Part shown: positions 1,871-30,486 of the stretch, piece after piece
How the letters are laid out: each line of letters begins with the position of its first letter
Position numbering within the stretch: position 1 is the first letter of the stretch
IMG/VR virus record: IMGVR_UViG_3300025326_000069
Coordinates: 1 to 45,986 of that record
Length of the DNA stretch: 45,986 nucleotides
Reading direction: 5' to 3' (one strand)
Source of the DNA: a virus
Made by a program: the position numbers and the translations under genes
The notes under the pieces: model-generated
Told to the model about the DNA's origin: nothing
The model's database searches: none
What the model saw: only the letters and a program-made list of their open reading frames with translations

Positions 1871-2154
1871 ATTTTTTCCTTAATTTTTAACTTAGGATGG
1901 TGACGATAATGACGTAACGGGTCTTTGATAGATCTTCCAGTTTTATCTGTAAGTAGAACTTTGTATTGAGATAATTCCGGCATAAGATCATCTGGATAAA
2001 AAGTTTCTTTCATTTCTTCTAAAAGTTTGACCATTTTCTTTTGCCAATTATATGGCATTGAAATTAATCCTACTCTAGGAAGAACTAAGTATGATGCATA
2101 AGTTAATCCAAACCATTCGTGCATAGGATCTTCTTTGATAACTTCTTTTTTCAT
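1867..2154 (-). CDS. small hypothetical protein, 95 aa
   Basis: No family recognised. It is a basic, probably soluble protein without signal peptide or membrane segment and without cysteine pairs. Its ATG at 2154 lies 8 bases after an AAGGA ribosome-binding sequence that sits at the foot of a long RNA stem (see 2155-2278), so translation may depend on that structure. It overlaps the exonuclease gene by 4 bases. Position between the replication genes suggests a replication-related accessory role, but this is context only. Confidence 0.65.
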   Translation of the reverse strand: MKKEVIKEDPMHEWFGLTYASYLVLPRVGLISMPYNWQKKMVKLLEEMKETFYPDDLMPELSQYKVLLTDKTGRSIKDPLRHYRHHPKLKIKEKI

Positions 2155-2278
2155 TTTATAGTCCTTGGGAAGTGGGATATAAGCCTCAAGAGAGGCAGTC
2201 CCTTATCCGGCTGGTAGCTCCCACTCCCCAAGTCTGGATGACGCAGTTTGAATATGGTATAGGGCACCCCATCATCCA
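2155..2278 (-). promoter_or_regulatory. structured RNA leader of the 95-aa gene
   Basis: Read on the minus strand, 2219-2232 pairs with 2164-2177 to give a 14-bp stem (one G-U). Inside it GCCTC (minus strand, 2192-2196) pairs with GAGGC (2183-2187) around a 4-base loop. A further 6-bp pair, GGATGA/TCATCC, joins 2272-2277 with 2236-2241. The 3' arm of the long stem ends in CCCAAGG and partly covers the ribosome-binding AAGGA of the 95-aa gene. The region is richer in G and C than its surroundings and has no open frame of its own. It could be a translational switch, a processed RNA or an unknown small RNA; no known riboswitch class was recognised. Confidence 0.5.
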
Positions 2279-2536
2279 TTATTTAACAACCCATTTTCTA
2301 ACTTCTTCCATTTCAAATAATTCTTCTCGTAAACAATTTTGACATTTCCTAATATGGGTGGTTTGTTTCATAATAAGGGGAAGTAGTTTTTCTCTAATAG
2401 GAGTTTCAGTAGGAGGAAAGGAACTACCATTTACTAATTTGCGCCCATCCCCCCATTTTTGATGTAACTCAAAAACTTTCCAAGAATATTGAAGGCCGTG
2501 ATTTTCACAATTATCTAATTTCTGTTTTACTATCAT
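2279..2536 (-). CDS. small hypothetical protein with CxxC, 85 aa
   Basis: No family recognised. A single CxxC (RKCQNC) lies near residue 65, perhaps half a zinc site. A strong ribosome-binding site, AGGAGG, lies a few bases upstream of the ATG at 2536. The gene stands alone between two structured intergenic regions, 2155-2278 and 2537-2797, rather than overlapping its neighbours, which is unusual in this otherwise compressed genome. Confidence 0.6.
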   Translation of the reverse strand: MIVKQKLDNCENHGLQYSWKVFELHQKWGDGRKLVNGSSFPPTETPIREKLLPLIMKQTTHIRKCQNCLREELFEMEEVRKWVVK

Positions 2537-2713
2537 TTTCCCTCCTAATTAATTTGGTGGTTAGGGGTGCCATCGTCCCAAGACATTCGCTTGGTCAGCA
2601 CGGTTACCATCCGTGTCCGTACCGGAAAATCTAACCAGACATACGGAACACCCCCCCAACCAATGCACCAGTTTCAGCCCCCTACACAAGGCTTAACGCT
2701 CCCTGGAGCAATC
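2537..2713 (-). ncRNA. highly structured intergenic RNA with a four-way junction
   Basis: Pairing is seen directly. A closing stem joins 2559-2569 with 2649-2661 (4 + 6 bp with a bulge). Inside it are three hairpins in a row: 2578-2594 (5-bp stem, 7-base loop), 2599-2615 (5-bp stem, 7-base loop) and 2616-2647 (6-bp stem, 20-base loop); the last two abut and could stack. On the minus strand the order resembles a tRNA cloverleaf and the middle loop reads ATGGTAA, but the last loop lacks a TTC sequence and 8 bases separate that arm from the closing stem, so a normal tRNA is not supported. It precedes the 85-aa gene and follows the SSB gene. Function unknown. Confidence 0.5.
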
Positions 2714-2790
2714 AAAAAGGGGACGGACAGTTGGGAAGAAGTGATAGGCTATCCCGAACCAATACACCCCGACCGTCTGTGACCGTCCCC
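2714..2790 (-). terminator. terminator-like stem after the SSB gene
   Basis: On the minus strand GGGGACGG (2783-2790) pairs with CCGTCCCC (2719-2726) and is followed at once by five T residues (2714-2718). The interior also pairs in part (GATA/TATC and GGGA/TCCC). The stem begins 7 bases after the SSB stop codon. The loop is much longer than in a standard intrinsic terminator, so it may act as a transcript-stabilising 3' structure. Confidence 0.4.
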
Positions 2791-2797
2791 ATATGTA

Positions 2798-4006
2798 TTA
2801 CCCTCTTGGTCTTAAACCACGTCTGGGTCCTGCAGTGGCAGGAGCCGCAGTGGTTGCTACCGGAGCCGCTGCTGCAGGAGCCGCAGGTCTAGGAGTTGGT
2901 CTAGGAGTTGCCGGGGCTGCAGGAGTAGGACGAGTAGCAGAGGGTGCAGAAGTCTCTGCGCCAGCCGCATCAATCTTATCCTTCTCAGCCGAGCAGTCAT
3001 CCCAAATGGGGCAAGTAGCGCACTCGTTATACTTTTCACAATCTGCCCCAAATACTCCCCCAACAGGACAGATCTGGGCACCAGCCGTTACTGGAGTAGC
3101 GGCGGGGCGTTGACGGGGGGTGGGGGTTGGATTAACAGCCGGGGCAGGTATCGGAGGTTCCGCAGCAGGAGCAGGAGTTGCTCTGGTACGAAGTCGGGAT
3201 TCTGCGGGAGCCGCTGTCGGTTGGGGTGCTGGGGATTCCTCTGTTGGGGGAGCTACATCCCCTCCCCCTCCTTGAAAAGCCAGATTAATTTCATCATAAG
3301 AAGAATAGTTGACGCAATCGTCCAAAATGAAAGCCGCATCCAAAACTTCATCAGGAATTTGGTAATTTCTGTCCACAAACTTATGGGCTAGAAATTCCGA
3401 ATTCCTCTTGGTTCCCTTACGAGTAAAGGAGATGGATTTCCCTGTATCTGGGTCTGAGAATGCCACGTACATATCAGTGGATTTTCCAGCCCCCCGAACG
3501 GGGGTCTTAGCCAAAGGTGCAATATGCTTCTCCATAAACCAGTGGGCGGCATCGAAGATCTGAACCCCCTTGTTCTCTTCCTTATCATTATCGTAGCACA
3601 GGATATTGTAGATACTCCGACGTTTGGGGGTGAGTTCCTTTACCAGATCCTCATCATAATCCTCCTGCCGGCGAACCTCTTCACGATATTCGCAAATGGG
3701 GCAGGACTTATTATAATTGCGAGCGGGGCAAACATAAGCATCTTGATTTACCCCTACCTGATAATGAACCCAAAGAATCAATACATAATTGGGTTCCCCA
3801 GGCTTGGTATTAGGATCATGGTCTCCAGCAAGGAAGGGAATAATATCGATAAGATGTTCCCCCTCCCCACATTTCCAAAGTTTGCTAACGTATTCATCTT
3901 TGAAAATGTTTTTAAACTGCCCAGAGTCATCCCGCTTTTCGTATGACTCTTGGGTTTTCTTTGCCAGAGATTCTTTCATCGCCGCACGTCTGTCAAGCGT
4001 GGCCAT
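2798..4006 (-). CDS. gp32-like single-stranded DNA-binding protein
   Basis: The 402-residue protein has the zinc site of T4 gp32-type SSBs: H81, C93, C102 and C105 (HYQVGVNQDAYVC, then CPIC). The OB-fold region runs to about residue 245. A second cysteine group follows at C313, C323, C329, C332 and C338, after an Ala/Pro-rich linker (about 250-310), and the protein ends in another Ala/Pro/Thr tail with basic residues instead of the acidic tail of gp32. It should coat single-stranded DNA at the fork and interact with the recombinase, mediator, polymerase and helicases. The linker and tail make the gene locally GC-rich. AAGGAGG lies just upstream of the ATG. The IS200/IS605 element is inserted immediately upstream and may separate the gene from its original promoter. 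Confidence 0.85.
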   Translation of the reverse strand: MATLDRRAAMKESLAKKTQESYEKRDDSGQFKNIFKDEYVSKLWKCGEGEHLIDIIPFLAGDHDPNTKPGEPNYVLILWVHYQVGVNQDAYVCPARNYNKSCPICEYREEVRRQEDYDEDLVKELTPKRRSIYNILCYDNDKEENKGVQIFDAAHWFMEKHIAPLAKTPVRGAGKSTDMYVAFSDPDTGKSISFTRKGTKRNSEFLAHKFVDRNYQIPDEVLDAAFILDDCVNYSSYDEINLAFQGGGGDVAPPTEESPAPQPTAAPAESRLRTRATPAPAAEPPIPAPAVNPTPTPRQRPAATPVTAGAQICPVGGVFGADCEKYNECATCPIWDDCSAEKDKIDAAGAETSAPSATRPTPAAPATPRPTPRPAAPAAAAPVATTAAPATAGPRRGLRPRG

Positions 4007-4125
4007 TTCTTTTTCCTCCTTCTTTTATTTTATTAAATTAGTAACTGCTGCCTTTAGGTGGCAGAGGAAACTCCCTCCTTTCGATTAACTTGACTTATAT
4101 ACTCGCCGAACTTATAATAATTTAC

Positions 4126-4521
4126 ATGGCAAGATATGTTCGAAATGTTAAGGCAATTTTTAATCTTAAATTGCATTTGATATGGTGCACCAAATACCGC
4201 CGCCCTGTGCTTGTAGAGGATATTGAAAAGAGGCTTAGGATATTGCTTTATACCAAGACAAAAGAATTGGAAATGGTAATTTACTCTTTGGATATAAATC
4301 CAGATTATGTCCATATATTTATAGAATTTGACCCTCGTCAAGGGATTGCTGAAATTGTAAATCGACTGAAGGGTTTCACTAGTCGAATATTGCGTCGGGA
4401 GTTTTCTTCGTTGCGTTCTCGATTGCCTACTCTTTGGAGTCGTAGTTATTATGCTGGAACTGTAGGGCAAGTTTTGGGAGTAACAATACGAATGTATATA
4501 GACTCGCAAAAGGGAAAGTAG
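4126..4521 (+). CDS. tnpA: IS200/IS605 TnpA, Y1 HUH transposase
   Basis: The 131-residue protein matches Y1 transposases that cut and rejoin single-stranded transposon ends. The start ATG at 4126 is preferred; a TTG at 4090 would add 12 residues from the left-end DNA. The catalytic tyrosine is Y124 (IRMYIDSQ). The metal-binding HUH motif is unusual: it reads DYVHIFIEF, so Y61 occupies the place of the first histidine and only H63 remains. The gene ends directly at the tnpB start (TAG then ATG). With an incomplete HUH pair this copy may be weak or inactive, but activity cannot be judged from sequence alone. Confidence 0.85.
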   Translation: MARYVRNVKAIFNLKLHLIWCTKYRRPVLVEDIEKRLRILLYTKTKELEMVIYSLDINPDYVHIFIEFDPRQGIAEIVNRLKGFTSRILRREFSSLRSRLPTLWSRSYYAGTVGQVLGVTIRMYIDSQKGK

Positions 4522-5649
4522 ATGTTCAAAGCTTTCAAATATCGACTTGAACCAAATGTGAATCAAACTAGGGAACTTGAAACATCCCTTGAAACCCACA
4601 GAAGACTTTACAATGCCTGTTTGAGGTGGCGAAAGGAATCTTATGAAACAAATAAACATGGCGTTAATTATGTGGAACAATCGGCCCAATTTACCCTTGA
4701 TCGAAAGATAAACCCATACTATGCTAGAATCAATTTTTCCTCTGCTCAAGCAACAATGCGCAATTTGGATAAGGCTTTCAAAGCGTTCTTTCGCCGTGTT
4801 AAATCTGGCGGAAAGCCGGGCTACCCGAGATTCAAAGCAAGAAATCAATTTCATTCGATAACGTTTCCATCTGGTGGCGGAGATGGTGCCCGGATAATAG
4901 GTAATAAACTGAGGCTTCAACATATTGGACTGGTACGAATCAATTTGCATCGCCTCATTGAAGGTACAGTTAAAACTATTAATATTAAAAGAGAATTGGA
5001 TAAATGGTATGTGACGGCGGTTTGCAAATTCCCCCTGGTGCCTCAAATAATTACATGTAAGCCTATTATTGGTATTGACGTTGGGTTGGAAAGTTTCTTG
5101 ACTACTAGTGATGGAGAGCATATCTATCCTCTTCAACCGATGAAGCCAAATCTTGGCAAACTTCGAATCTCCCAACGCAGTTTGAGTAGAAAGAAAAAAG
5201 GATCGAATAGTAGAGAAAAACAACGAAGGATTGTTTCCAAATTGTACTTGAAAATATCGAATGTACGAAAGGATGCTCATCATAAAATTGCGGTGAATTT
5301 GATCAATCGCTACGGAGCTTTTGTGGTGGAGAGCTTGAACGTCCAAGGGATGGTCAAGAACCACCGATTGGCACGAGCGGTGTTGGATGCTGGCTGGGCT
5401 AGCTTCCTTATGATATTGAAGAACAAGGCTGAAAGCGCCGGTCTTCGATACGAAGAGGTGAGTGCGCGTTATACTTCGCAGATATGTCCTGAGTGCGGCA
5501 AGGTTAAAAAGAAAACCTTGAGTGAGCGGAGGCATGATTGTGATTGTGGGTATAGTGCGCACAGAGATCATGCGGCGGCGCGAGTAATTCTCGCCCGTGG
5601 TATACAGGCTGGGACGCAGCCTGAAGGACTTAATGTTAGTGTTAGCTAA
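4522..5649 (+). CDS. tnpB: TnpB RNA-guided nuclease
   Basis: The 375-residue protein is full length for a compact TnpB. RuvC residues are present: D186 (IGIDVG), E270 (VVESLNVQGM) and D349 (HRDHAAARV). A four-cysteine zinc finger lies between them (C322, C325, C340, C342). TnpB proteins use an RNA transcribed from the 3' part of the gene and the right end (omega RNA) to cut DNA next to a transposon-specific motif, helping element retention. Here that RNA would span roughly 5500-5691 with its guide starting in the flanking DNA, which is the coding sequence of the neighbouring small membrane protein. All catalytic residues look intact. Confidence 0.9.
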   Translation: MFKAFKYRLEPNVNQTRELETSLETHRRLYNACLRWRKESYETNKHGVNYVEQSAQFTLDRKINPYYARINFSSAQATMRNLDKAFKAFFRRVKSGGKPGYPRFKARNQFHSITFPSGGGDGARIIGNKLRLQHIGLVRINLHRLIEGTVKTINIKRELDKWYVTAVCKFPLVPQIITCKPIIGIDVGLESFLTTSDGEHIYPLQPMKPNLGKLRISQRSLSRKKKGSNSREKQRRIVSKLYLKISNVRKDAHHKIAVNLINRYGAFVVESLNVQGMVKNHRLARAVLDAGWASFLMILKNKAESAGLRYEEVSARYTSQICPECGKVKKKTLSERRHDCDCGYSAHRDHAAARVILARGIQAGTQPEGLNVSVS

Positions 5650-5668
5650 CATGTTCTTAGAAGCCGCC

Positions 5669-5887
5669 TCATTTATGTGGCGGAGCGTCACTTTTGCCCT
5701 CCGGTCCCTTTTGGGGGTTATCCTTGAACACGTCAAGGAGTTTTTTGGTGTGACTAATTTTAGTGTCCCACCAACTGTTCATACACGCTGTGGCTATTAC
5801 CCTAACCACCATATATATAGCCATTAGTGATAAGGGTATTCCAACTACAGCTATTAATATTTGTTCCCACAGTTTTAAATCATTCAT
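5669..5887 (-). CDS. small membrane protein, 72 aa, C-terminus altered by the IS
   Basis: One transmembrane segment is clear at about residues 8-32 (QILIAVVGIPLSLMAIYMVV), followed by a polar tail. No family recognised. The stop codon lies inside the right-end palindrome of the IS element, so the last residues (about SDAPPHK) are encoded by transposon DNA and the original C-terminus has been replaced. It overlaps the upstream mediator gene by 4 bases (ATGA). Confidence 0.6.
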   Translation of the reverse strand: MNDLKLWEQILIAVVGIPLSLMAIYMVVRVIATACMNSWWDTKISHTKKLLDVFKDNPQKGPEGKSDAPPHK

Positions 5888-7575: not shown

Positions 7576-10500
7576 TCATACTAAAAAATCCCAGGATTGG
7601 TTAATTTTTCCTATTTTTATATCAGATATTAATGGGACAATGATCCAAGGATTGTTCGCTAAAACATCTTTAGTCATCACTTTTTTAGTGGTTTCTATTA
7701 CATGATCTATTTCGTTTGGGTTAGTATCTATAATTATAGAATCATGGATTTGTCCTATTAATTTAGATTTCCATTTTTCTTCTTTTGATATTTCATTTAT
7801 TTTAATTATTGATTCTAAAAGTACGTGGAATGCTGTGCCTTGAATTACGGAATTTATAATTTCATTTTTGGTTAAAAATCCCCTTCGTCGGAAGCCATGC
7901 ATCATTTCAACATATCCGTTTTGTTGGTATGATTTTATTAGTCCATCTTGAAATTTTTTAATCCCACGATATTTTAGCCAAAATTCTCGCTCTGCTTTTT
8001 GAACTCTCATTATAGGTAGATCATGGTATCCTCTGCTAATTAAATCTGCATGAATATTTTTATAATAACTGCCGTAAAAGAGGGCAAAAACCATGGCGTT
8101 CTTGGCATCGAATCTCATTATTTTTGCATCGAATCCCTTTAGTTGTAAAAAATCTGCCCACTCTTGATGAATATCCGCTCCATCTATACGTTCTTTCATT
8201 AATACAGGGTCTTTGGAATAGCAAGCTAAAATGCCGACTTCATGCCCCCCATAATCAGCCTCAGCTAATAGGTTTCCTGGAGAGGGAATTATTCCATTTC
8301 TTACCATAGTCATAGATTCTTTATCTCTTTTGGGAATGTTTTGCATATTGGGGGAGTCCATAGAACTTCTGCCTGTTCTTACTAAATGTAAATTAGAATT
8401 AGGATGTAATTTTTTATTGACTTGTAAACCTAAAATTCCATCAATATAAGTAGTCTTCAATTTATCCAATTTTCTTTTTTTAACCAAATCTTTTGCGAAG
8501 GGTATATCCAAACTTTCCACAACGTCTTTATCTACGGAGTCCCCACCACCCTCCGTTTTTTTGATGGATTTTACTCCTAAGAATTCAAACAAAAGTTTTT
8601 TCATATCATCAGAAGAAGTTAATTTTATTTCTCTTCCTGTTTTAGATTTAAATAATTTTGCTTCTGGAGAGCGAAGTAATTGTTTTTCTAGGAAATCTAG
8701 TCTTTTTTCTAATTTTATTTGGGTATCTTGATAATATTCTACGTTTACTGAGATCCCTTCCATTTCCATATCAGAAAAAGCAAGAACTCCTTTATGAAAT
8801 AAATCGTAGGCTTTAGAAGCGGCGAGGGATTCCTTATTCCCCTTATCCATGAAATCCCATTGCCGTTCCGCCAATCTCATCGTGAAATAAGCATCTAATC
8901 CGTTATATTTCAATAGCTCATTTAATGGGCACTTCTGCATAGTATTAAATTTAGTTCCCGGAAGGGCCTTTTTGAATTTAGAAATATCCCCTCCGTATTC
9001 ATACCCCCAATTTATAAACGTTTGAAAATCTAGCCCTGTAAATCCTGCTCGTTCATCTACGATATGAGAACAAACCATTGTATCCCAATACCATCCTTTT
9101 GGCTCTTCTCCAATTATGATTTTACTCCACGGATGCTCCATCTGAATATTCTGGGCTACTTTTAATATTTCTGGGTCGGAGAGTACCCCTCGCCATGCCT
9201 TATTCAACGCTTCTAACTGTCCTGATTGCCACGCTCCGGGGTAGGAGTAGGGCCAGGCATAGGCTATGTCCTCCCCGTAGATAGCGACAGCCGTAGACAC
9301 AATAGAGTGGCCGGGATAGTAGGGACGGAGGCCAGTAGTTTCATAATCAAATGCTATCGTTGGTTTTTGTTCTTTAATCGTTTTGAGAATATCTAAAATT
9401 TCATCTGTATTGGTTAGACATTTTATCTTTTGGGAATAATCAATTTCTTCTATTTCTGGTAAATTTGAAGTTATTTGTTCCATTGCCCATTGGAGGTCTA
9501 ATTTGAAAATGTTCTCTGCGTCAGGATTTCTGATAACGAAAGAGGGATGGTATAGTGGGATAACCCAAGCCTTCGTTTGAACATCAGGAATGCAAAGTTT
9601 TCTCCATCTCCCAATAGATAAATTTGTTGAAATAGGTTGAGTCCTATTCATGAAAAACGCCTCTACTGCTTTTGCGCCAAAAAGTAGTATATACTTCGGT
9701 TGAAATTGTTGTATCGCTGCTCGCCAGTTAGGTTCGCAAGCTTTGATTTCCCGTGTAGTCGGAGTTCGGTTGCTCCCCTTCTCGTTGGTTGGCCGGCAAT
9801 TATGATGAATTACTCTATTTGCTATAAAACTATTGTCCTCTTCTACTTCTATGCAAGTTAAAGACATTCTTTTTCCTATAGGAATTTTTTCTATAGAAAC
9901 TATTTCTACTTCGGTGAATTGATATTCTTGATTATGATTCTTTATTAATCTTTCTATTGGGGAAATAGGATTTTTAGAGGAAACTCGGAGTAATTCATAA
10001 TTATAATTTTTAGCTAGTATGTTTTTTTTCGTTTGATCATTTTTAACTGATTTTTGTCCGTTCCTATCCGGATTATCTACTTCCACTAGCAAATTATACT
10101 TTGGCAAAAAGAAATCATAATTTAATGTTTCAATGGCAAATTGAGAAATGAATTGTATTTTTTTATCGGATAAATAATTTGCTAAAGACCCCTCTCCAAA
10201 TCCTATTGTGATAGGAGATATACTAGATAATTTATTTTCAGATTCTTTAATTTTGGCCCATTTTATTCTGCCTTTTAGCTTAGCTTCCTTAGTTACTTTC
10301 CCCCCCGTCATCTTCCCCCAAACGCCCAGTTTAGCCGATCTTCTTACTTTTTCATGGGCTTTCTCCCTAAGTTTTTCTCCATATTTATCCTCTAAGTATT
10401 TACTTTCGCAGATTAAAGAACAAATATTTTCCCCATAAGAATTAGTTTTAAAAAAAATACCCCCACAAATTATACATTTTTCTCCTATGGCTATTATTCT

Positions 10501-11100
10501 ATCTCCTTTATTTAATTGACGTGCATAAACCCAATTTTCTTTATTGTCTATTTTAGATAAAAATCTATGTGAAGAGGTAACAACAAATTCTTTCAAACTT
10601 CTATTTTTATAAGGAGAATTGATCCTCCCCACTTTAATTTTGTAAACTTCTTCAGTAATTCTTTTAAGGTGCTTGGGAAGATCTTGAATTCTAGATATTA
10701 CCTTTCTAAATCTTCCTTTATGGGTTAATACTAAATCCCCCACCTTAACTTTAGATACAGGTTTATACCCATCTATAGTAAATATAGGAACTTGATGATA
10801 AACAAAACACGCTACGGCATTAGTTTTTCTGAAATCTCTATCTAGATCGTACCCCATAATCCTAAAGCATTTTCTAAGAAAATGGCCAGTTTCTCCTATA
10901 AATTGATTGTTCAGTTGATCTTCTCGCTCACCACTAGCTTCCCCCAATATGAAGGTTTTAAGTTTTCCTTCACCAGTGGGGGGAATATTTGGGGATAGGG
11001 TACGATTTTTCAGCCCACATGCGTCACAACCTACGGCCCCTCGGGGGGTTTTTGGTTGGGCTGCTTTAGCAGGAGTTGGTATATCAAAGAACCCTCGCAT
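7576..11100 (-). CDS. uracil-DNA glycosylase / 3'-5' exonuclease / PolA DNA polymerase fusion with intein
   Basis: Removing the 337-residue intein (residues 98-434) leaves an 837-residue protein. The N-terminal part resembles family-4 uracil-DNA glycosylase: CDACGL, GEASGEREDQ, the interrupted NAVA/CRPTNEKG and HPSFVI. A 3'-5' exonuclease follows (FDYETTG, NIQMEHPW, YNGLDAYFT), then an A-family polymerase with motif A EADYGGHEVGIL, motif B RFDAKNAMVFALFYGS and motif C GQIHDSIIID. This is the replicative polymerase, used with the clamp and loader nearby. Fused glycosylase domains are known on phage polymerases. The intein sits in the glycosylase domain, yet splicing is needed to join this domain to the polymerase chain. 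The gene ends 57 bases before the clamp-loader start and begins directly after a 56-aa gene. Confidence 0.9.
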   Translation of the reverse strand: MRGFFDIPTPAKAAQPKTPRGAVGCDACGLKNRTLSPNIPPTGEGKLKTFILGEASGEREDQLNNQFIGETGHFLRKCFRIMGYDLDRDFRKTNAVACFVYHQVPIFTIDGYKPVSKVKVGDLVLTHKGRFRKVISRIQDLPKHLKRITEEVYKIKVGRINSPYKNRSLKEFVVTSSHRFLSKIDNKENWVYARQLNKGDRIIAIGEKCIICGGIFFKTNSYGENICSLICESKYLEDKYGEKLREKAHEKVRRSAKLGVWGKMTGGKVTKEAKLKGRIKWAKIKESENKLSSISPITIGFGEGSLANYLSDKKIQFISQFAIETLNYDFFLPKYNLLVEVDNPDRNGQKSVKNDQTKKNILAKNYNYELLRVSSKNPISPIERLIKNHNQEYQFTEVEIVSIEKIPIGKRMSLTCIEVEEDNSFIANRVIHHNCRPTNEKGSNRTPTTREIKACEPNWRAAIQQFQPKYILLFGAKAVEAFFMNRTQPISTNLSIGRWRKLCIPDVQTKAWVIPLYHPSFVIRNPDAENIFKLDLQWAMEQITSNLPEIEEIDYSQKIKCLTNTDEILDILKTIKEQKPTIAFDYETTGLRPYYPGHSIVSTAVAIYGEDIAYAWPYSYPGAWQSGQLEALNKAWRGVLSDPEILKVAQNIQMEHPWSKIIIGEEPKGWYWDTMVCSHIVDERAGFTGLDFQTFINWGYEYGGDISKFKKALPGTKFNTMQKCPLNELLKYNGLDAYFTMRLAERQWDFMDKGNKESLAASKAYDLFHKGVLAFSDMEMEGISVNVEYYQDTQIKLEKRLDFLEKQLLRSPEAKLFKSKTGREIKLTSSDDMKKLLFEFLGVKSIKKTEGGGDSVDKDVVESLDIPFAKDLVKKRKLDKLKTTYIDGILGLQVNKKLHPNSNLHLVRTGRSSMDSPNMQNIPKRDKESMTMVRNGIIPSPGNLLAEADYGGHEVGILACYSKDPVLMKERIDGADIHQEWADFLQLKGFDAKIMRFDAKNAMVFALFYGSYYKNIHADLISRGYHDLPIMRVQKAEREFWLKYRGIKKFQDGLIKSYQQNGYVEMMHGFRRRGFLTKNEIINSVIQGTAFHVLLESIIKINEISKEEKWKSKLIGQIHDSIIIDTNPNEIDHVIETTKKVMTKDVLANNPWIIVPLISDIKIGKINQSWDFLV
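9799..10809 (-). other. intein in the polymerase gene, with embedded Vsr/DUF559-like nuclease
   Basis: The intein is 337 residues, from Cys98 to Asn434 of the precursor, with Cys as the +1 residue (NAVA/CFVYHQ ... VIHHN/CRPTNE). Splicing blocks are visible: VKVGDLVLTHKG near residues 21-32, block B VVTSSHRFL (T78, H81) and C-terminal FIANRVIHHN. Between them lie a four-cysteine zinc-finger-like segment (CIIC ... CSLIC, 112-134) and a nuclease-like domain (about 200-280) with NYDFFLPKYNLLVEVDN, similar in layout to Vsr/DUF559-type PD-(D/E)XK folds. The histidine normally following the ExD motif is not obvious, so the nuclease may be degenerate. Confidence 0.85.
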
Positions 11101-29757: not shown

Positions 29758-30486
29758 TCAATTAACCGTGAACGACCCGTTGGCCACAGTGACTACCCCC
29801 ATCTTTTCTAAAACATTCAAGGAGGACTTCACCACCGTAGCAGATTCCTTTGCGTTATTCTTTCCGCCCTGATCAATATAATGCTGATTAGCCGACGCTA
29901 CCAACTCCTCGATAGTCCCCGTTTTTAACGCAGTAAGAGTGCCCCCCAAAGATGACCAACGATTGAACGCTTTGGGAGTCGGACCCTTCCGAGCAACCTT
30001 CTCCTTGGGGGGCTTGGGGGCCTTTGCGGAAGCCGGGGCCTTTGCCACAGCAGGAGCAGCTGCTACTGGGGTAGGTGCTGTCGTAGCCGGTGCCGGGGGA
30101 GCCGGGGCTGGGGTACTCGCTACAGGGGCAGGAGCAGCAGGAGCCGGGGCAGGAGCCGCAGGAGGACGTCCAACACGACGGGCTGCAATTGGAGGAGGCG
30201 GGGGGGGCGGCTCAGGAGCAGGAGGCGGCTCCAGTTCTGTCTCTGGGGGGGCTTCCTCTCCCTGATCCAGACCCAAAGTAGTCAGAATCTCATTGTACAG
30301 GTTGATAATATTTGCATTGAAGGTTCCAGGGGCATCCACCTCGGCCTTTTCCACTGCGTCAAGAAACGCAGGGATCAAAAGTTCCTTGGAAACCTTGTCT
30401 GCATTCTTGACCCCAACTTCTGTAGCACATGCGATTAACTTACTGTGAACAATTTTCTTCACGAGCTTCGGGTCAAAATTCGGCAT
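29758..30486 (-). CDS. Ala/Pro-rich protein with possible C-terminal winged helix, 242 aa
   Basis: The ATG at 30486 follows GGAGGG and is preferred over 30576. Residues 1-80 form a helical domain (FDPKLVKKIVHSKL...). Residues 90-170 are a Pro/Ala-rich linker with poly-Pro and an AT-hook-like GRPP; then a Lys-rich stretch precedes an 80-residue domain ending VLEKMGVVTVANGSFTVN, which resembles a winged-helix DNA-binding fold. It could be a nucleoid-type or transcription-associated protein. Linker composition makes the gene GC-rich like the SSB tail, and both genes are followed by structured RNA regions. Function unknown. Confidence 0.5.
   Translation of the reverse strand: MPNFDPKLVKKIVHSKLIACATEVGVKNADKVSKELLIPAFLDAVEKAEVDAPGTFNANIINLYNEILTTLGLDQGEEAPPETELEPPPAPEPPPPPPPIAARRVGRPPAAPAPAPAAPAPVASTPAPAPPAPATTAPTPVAAAPAVAKAPASAKAPKPPKEKVARKGPTPKAFNRWSSLGGTLTALKTGTIEELVASANQHYIDQGGKNNAKESATVVKSSLNVLEKMGVVTVANGSFTVN

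Follow-up and report, generated by a model that had tools for sequence, protein, structure and literature searches.

Comparative analysis of the sequence indicates that the 261-base gap (2537-2797) between a gp32-like SSB gene and an 85-aa ORF carries a real, conserved structured RNA, which belongs to a phage replication operon and is encoded on the minus strand. The element appears to represent a new orphan RNA family, and its function is inferred below. The window is the whole stretch of DNA analysed here, that is, the 45,986 nucleotides of the IMG/VR virus record IMGVR_UViG_3300025326_000069. The first-pass annotation of this DNA had placed a gap with these bounds after the SSB gene and had proposed a structured four-way-junction RNA there, possibly of a new class. 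The bounds were confirmed, and two of the checks that it had named were run: covariation was found in relatives, where the idea survived, and the search of Rfam gave no family match.

The SSB gene (2798-4006, minus strand) encodes a T4 gp32-like single-strand DNA-binding protein (PF08804, E 4.8e-8; phrog_1192), and the 85-aa ORF (2279-2536, minus strand) is the next gene after the RNA element. It heads a minus-strand block (1004-2536) of the 85-aa ORF, a 42-aa ORF, a 95-aa ORF and a 5'-3' exonuclease, in which consecutive ORFs overlap by 1-4 nt, and RecA comes next; the exonuclease and RecA have domain matches to PF02739 and PF00154, respectively. The minus strand is the coding strand of every local phage gene, and because the neighbouring genes sit on it, we read the structured RNA of the gap on this strand too. 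Its order from 5' to 3' is a terminator-like stem (P0), TTTTT, a hairpin (P1), the four-way junction of P2-P5, AAUUAAUU, AGGAGGG and the ATG at 2536. The 42-aa ORF (2151-2279, minus strand) is G+C-rich with a long hairpin (CTTGGGGAGTGGGA/TCCCACTTCCCAAGG), and both its start and its stop overlap the neighbours; this stretch could be a small gene, form another structured RNA or do both. Elsewhere in the window, a Family A DNA polymerase ORF (7576-11100, minus strand; PF00476) also matches a uracil-DNA-glycosylase-like domain (PF03167) and carries an intein (PF14890), and a low-complexity, G+C-rich region (29990-30260; GC 0.67, reversed skew) resembles in composition the repeat-rich 3' region of the SSB gene.

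Folding of the single sequence was no better than chance (z of -0.84 on the plus strand and -1.27 on the minus strand against dinucleotide shuffles), and because this is unremarkable, it is the comparison with relatives that decides. SSB relatives from IMG/VR provided three further distinct versions of the locus, L006 (= L016), L007 and L013, with SSB identities to the window of 79%, 74% and 62%, respectively. RNAalifold on the four cores returned P2-P5 unprompted. In the written-out structure 94.2% of cells are paired, as against 38-49% after sliding the partners by 1-3 columns. Two-sided changes occur at 7 pairs, in only four distinct and mutually related sequences, and the covariation score was matched by none of 500 shuffles; a hand count stem by stem agrees with this score and adds P1. 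Relative to column-shuffled alignments, the sense strand had a z value of -6.7 and the antisense strand one of -3.6, and the seven wobble pairs are without exception G-U when read on the minus strand, with none on the plus strand. Covariation for the same fold in independent sequences, by which a new structured RNA family is recognised, was found in these four distinct versions, with P4 invariant. The predicted structure of P1, P2, P3 and P5 is well supported by these comparisons.

The core of the element (2555-2661, minus strand), as defined by RNAalifold and a covariance model (R1), is a four-way junction with the closing stem P2 and the arms P3, P4 and P5. R1 was built from four sequences, the window among them, and matches the window at 2661..2555 on the minus strand with 101 bits (E 6.7e-21); it also finds the junction in the three diverged relatives, L006/L016, L007 and L013. 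The junction had first been located at 2559-2661, and these coordinates were right; the minus strand had been left unstated, and a plus-strand reading gives the mirror image. The 5' strand of P2 (GGUUGGGGGGGUG, 2649-2661, where the window has two extra G) pairs with 2559-2569, and its 11 pairs are formed in 100% of cells, with a change between GC and AU at one pair and G-U wobbles at four. P3 (2616-2647) is an arm of variable length with UCCGUA and UACGGA at 2647-2642 and 2621-2616; two-sided changes are seen in three of five pairs, and it is the interior that varies in length. P4 (2599-2615) is a nearly invariant hairpin, CACG-GAUGGUAAC-CGUG, of which the loop is almost invariant and the stem identical in all four sequences, so that covariation gives no test of P4. 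P5 (2578-2594) is CCAAG CGAAUGU CUUGG in the window, and its versions across relatives are CCAAG/CUUGG, CCACG/CGUGG and CCGC/GCGG. The junction is preceded by P1 (2664-2710; UGCUCCAG...CUGGUGCA with an inner AGCC/GGCU stem), which was aligned by hand. The 8-bp stem of P1 differs in sequence in each of the four relatives (CGUACCAG, AGAGUCAA, GCGCCAGG) with the pairing maintained, and its sole unpaired cell is one U-U mismatch in the window. All these stems are on the minus strand, as are the 3' tail ACCA (2555-2558) and the Shine-Dalgarno sequence AGGAGGG of the next gene (2540-2546), 8 nt past the tail. The distance from tail to Shine-Dalgarno sequence is 8, 6, 6 and 9 nt in the window, L006, L007 and L013, respectively, and the ribosome-binding site of L006 (UGGAAAGAG) is weak.

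The tail is a candidate pseudoknot partner of UGGU in the P4 loop. The loop reads AUGGU (AUGGA in L013) and could base-pair with the tail past P2, which is ACCAU in L006 and UCCAU in L013; L013 thus has a compensatory change of UA to AU, but one position in L007 is a U-U mismatch and no more than four pairs form in the window. Shuffles of the tail columns matched the score of this 4-5 bp candidate in 6.5% of trials, and the alignment is only suggestive of a pseudoknot between the P4 loop and the 3' tail. In L007 and L013 the tail overlaps an anti-SD-like CCUCC. Occlusion of the Shine-Dalgarno sequence by CCUCC was rejected as a universal switch, since the pairing exists in L007 and L013 only and is impossible in the window.

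Upstream of P1, P0 (2719-2790, minus strand) consists of an 8-bp base, GGGGACGG/CCGTCCCC (arms at 2719-2726 and 2783-2790), and an irregular inner stem, with TTTTT (2718..2714) directly on its 3' side. The terminator-like stem that had been described at 2714-2790 therefore exists, but it is terminator-like on the minus strand only, where, as in intrinsic terminators, a U tract comes directly after a G+C-rich stem on the transcribed strand; a short-loop scan did not call it as a terminator. A similar stem with TTTT is present in L006, the stem of L013 lacks a U tract and L007 has no stem, and because of L007 we do not count P0 as an invariant part of the RNA element. P0 is probably a terminator, perhaps a partial one, of the SSB transcript. 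In L012, a P0-like stem leads straight into the ribosome site. The P0-like stems of L012 (6658-6728) and L013 (3783-3853, no U tract) share a conserved interior (87.5% over 72 nt) and are possibly a second structured RNA module. Moreover, a 28-nt motif, GGGTAAGGAAAGTAAAMGGAGMATGGGC, is common to L013 (3673-3700) and L014 (4287-4314), where it lies within long intergenic hairpins after SSB.

The element was found as a single copy per genome by R1 in the window, in four further whole-scanned contigs of the same virus and in both L006/L016 contigs, with no match in more distant SSB loci. A degenerate-pattern scan of 97 contigs gave no new member, and a scan with a P1 16-mer yielded the same virus only, plus three chance matches within unrelated sequence. 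Loci retrieved via the exonuclease or the 85-aa ORF contained no further lineage carrying the RNA, and nothing similar was found at the DNA level in named phages. There was also no match in 599 sampled bacterial genomes of two phyla, which is weak evidence. In the SSB tree, the window, L006 and L007 are grouped (92/94), and L013 stands beside L012 inside a second clade. The element is absent from the SSB-exonuclease gap of L009/L010 and from the SSB-85-aa gap of L012, which implies either two losses or an acquisition by L013.

The genes around the RNA turn over among the genomes that carry it. The order is RNA-85aa-42aa-95aa-exonuclease in the window, Tad2-like-RNA-mini-ORF-exonuclease in L006, RNA-106aa-73aa-100aa-exonuclease in L007 and Tad2-like-RNA-85aa in L013 (Tad2-like homology judged by eye), and the element is retained in the window, L006 and L007 although genes on either side of it change. 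The mini-ORF of L006 is, by eye, the 95-aa gene cut down to its last codons, in frame, after the RNA and a start codon, and this remnant still overlaps the start of the exonuclease. The small ORF after SSB in L006 (6208-6441) is Tad2-like (PF11195, E 3.7e-8), and ORFs homologous to it were recognised by eye in L009, L012 and L013. This suggests that the gap between SSB and the exonuclease serves as an accessory site, perhaps one for anti-defence genes.

Two other origins for the RNA were considered. An IS200/IS605-type insertion with TnpA (PF01797) and TnpB (PF07282) occupies 4020-5690, directly upstream of SSB, with a CTGCC/GGCAG hairpin at its left end; the uninterrupted site is found in L006/L016. 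The RNA is not a TnpB guide RNA of this element (4090-5649, plus strand, opposite to the RNA), because L006 does not have the IS200/IS605 element yet keeps the RNA. A coding origin is unlikely, as indels among relatives, seen by eye in the alignment, break the 42-aa and 71-aa frames across the gap.

With regard to function, we favour, tentatively, a structured RNA of about 155 nt (P1 and the four-way junction) that acts in cis in the intercistronic space of the replication operon, and we prefer this to a trans-acting RNA. The conserved RNA is on the coding strand and ends 6-9 nt ahead of a ribosome-binding site in all four versions (weak in L006), a near-constant spacing in genomes whose flanking genes differ. 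No promoter was called on the minus strand here, and no terminator was seen 3' of the element, so that the RNA reads directly into the next gene. In L007, which has no P0, the RNA begins no more than about ten bases from the SSB stop, and for this reason the RNA is likely part of the SSB message. The SSB message would mostly stop at P0 or be cut nearby, and the RNA fold would govern translation of the next cistron. The overlapping stop/start junctions could then pass this control on to the coupled block ending in the exonuclease and RecA. The switch may be the 3' tail, CC(A/U)CCA: the ribosome site would be open while the tail is held by the P4 loop in the pseudoknot, and would be occluded when the tail is released (CCUCC/GGAGG in L013, with L007 matching over a shorter stretch). 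The T4 gene 32 operator offers a parallel, by which the gp32-like SSB itself would be the most natural ligand and the first candidate. On the other hand, the gene downstream of the RNA differs between genomes, which would be unusual if the RNA were a dedicated leader, CCUCC/SD pairing is confined to L007 and L013, and the pseudoknot is weakly supported. Moreover, the element is missing from the gaps of L009/L010 and L012, and the RNA follows SSB, while in T4 the operator stands in front.

The main rival is a stand-alone phage RNA that acts in trans by binding a protein or RNA of the host or the phage, possibly in counter-defence, which is a possible but less probable explanation. Such an RNA would be cut from the operon transcript or transcribed from a weak promoter of its own. 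Its retention in the window, L006 and L007 amid changing genes is in favour of this, the conserved unpaired residues suggest a binding surface, and the patchy presence fits an accessory function in a gap that holds the Tad2-like gene in L006, though PF11195 proteins are not necessarily anti-defence. However, there is neither a promoter call nor a 3' terminator, the element meets a ribosome site within 6-9 nt in four of four versions, and no known RNA of such a kind matches. The more specific idea of a new phage RNA family whose fold serves counter-defence or host takeover in trans, in an SSB-exonuclease accessory gap, is quite doubtful.

It is also unlikely that the element is a 3'-end protector or processing signal of an abundant SSB message, with folds that block 3' exonucleases and a junction that is a nuclease target. 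The element is always in the SSB-exonuclease gap of the clade, and P0 and P1 are stable stems; in work cited in PMC3014915, the T4 gene 32 mRNA is made a stable species via RNase E processing. However, simple stems would suffice for protection, which leaves the near-invariant P4 loop and junction residues unexplained, as well as the absence from L009/L010. An unknown class of self-cleaving ribozyme or of metabolite riboswitch is improbable: the compact junction, the conserved unpaired nucleotides and the candidate pseudoknot would suit either, but none of the 4227 families of Rfam 15, known ribozymes and riboswitches included, reached its gathering score in the window or the relatives (best sub-threshold match E 1.6), and the downstream genes point to no metabolite. 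More improbable still is a DNA element such as a replication origin or packaging site, with inverted repeats acting as DNA, which would agree with the location among replication genes and one copy per genome; the wobbles, seven to none, are of the kind tolerated only in minus-strand RNA, and the antisense strand folds far less consistently. The tRNA-like structure or decoy of the first-pass annotation is hardly credible, because, despite the four-way junction and a CCA past the closing stem in all four sequences, ARAGORN found neither a tRNA nor a tmRNA in the window, L006, L007 or L013, P2 has 11 pairs and not 7, several conserved nucleotides separate the last arm P5 from P2, unlike in tRNA, the loops lack T-loop and anticodon-loop consensus, and the CCA stands in an mRNA context shortly before the ribosome site, where it can just as simply be taken for the 3' side of the candidate pseudoknot.

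Orphan RNA families turn up regularly, and the element is therefore of moderate interest unless a ligand or a trans role is shown. To our knowledge, a role is known for few phage-specific structured RNAs. The present element offers a defined fold, covariation, a constant place in the operon and natural lineages with and without the RNA, so that its role should be testable by simple reporter and binding assays. It resembles GOLLD, ROOL and similar orphan phage RNAs in being covarying, phage-borne and of no known role, but it is far smaller and has no Rfam match. tRNA, tmRNA and tRNA-like structures share the four-way junction and CCA, and differ in stem lengths, arm spacing and loops. Translational riboswitches and r-protein leaders are likewise compactly folded, with unpaired residues that are conserved, and lie directly upstream of a ribosome site; here, in contrast, the downstream gene varies, no ligand is known and anti-SD pairing is present in only two of four versions.

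Finally, T4 gp32 binds a pseudoknot adjoining an A+U-rich ribosome site on its own mRNA (PMC3014915, PMC535899). The T4/RB69 gene 32 operator and the RNA described here have in common a phage replication operon, a gp32-like SSB and a pseudoknot (a candidate here), followed by an A+U-rich stretch and a ribosome site. The operator of T4 is in front of the SSB gene, while our element is 3' of SSB and not in the SSB leader, and no comparable element was seen by eye in the SSB leaders of L006, L007 and L011-L013. The T4/RB69 operator is also a pseudoknot of about 28 nt, much smaller than P1 and the four-way junction, and no sequence similarity between the two has been shown; binding of the SSB is here a hypothesis by analogy. 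If the SSB does bind this RNA, T4-style translational control by SSB would extend to another site and to a far larger RNA.
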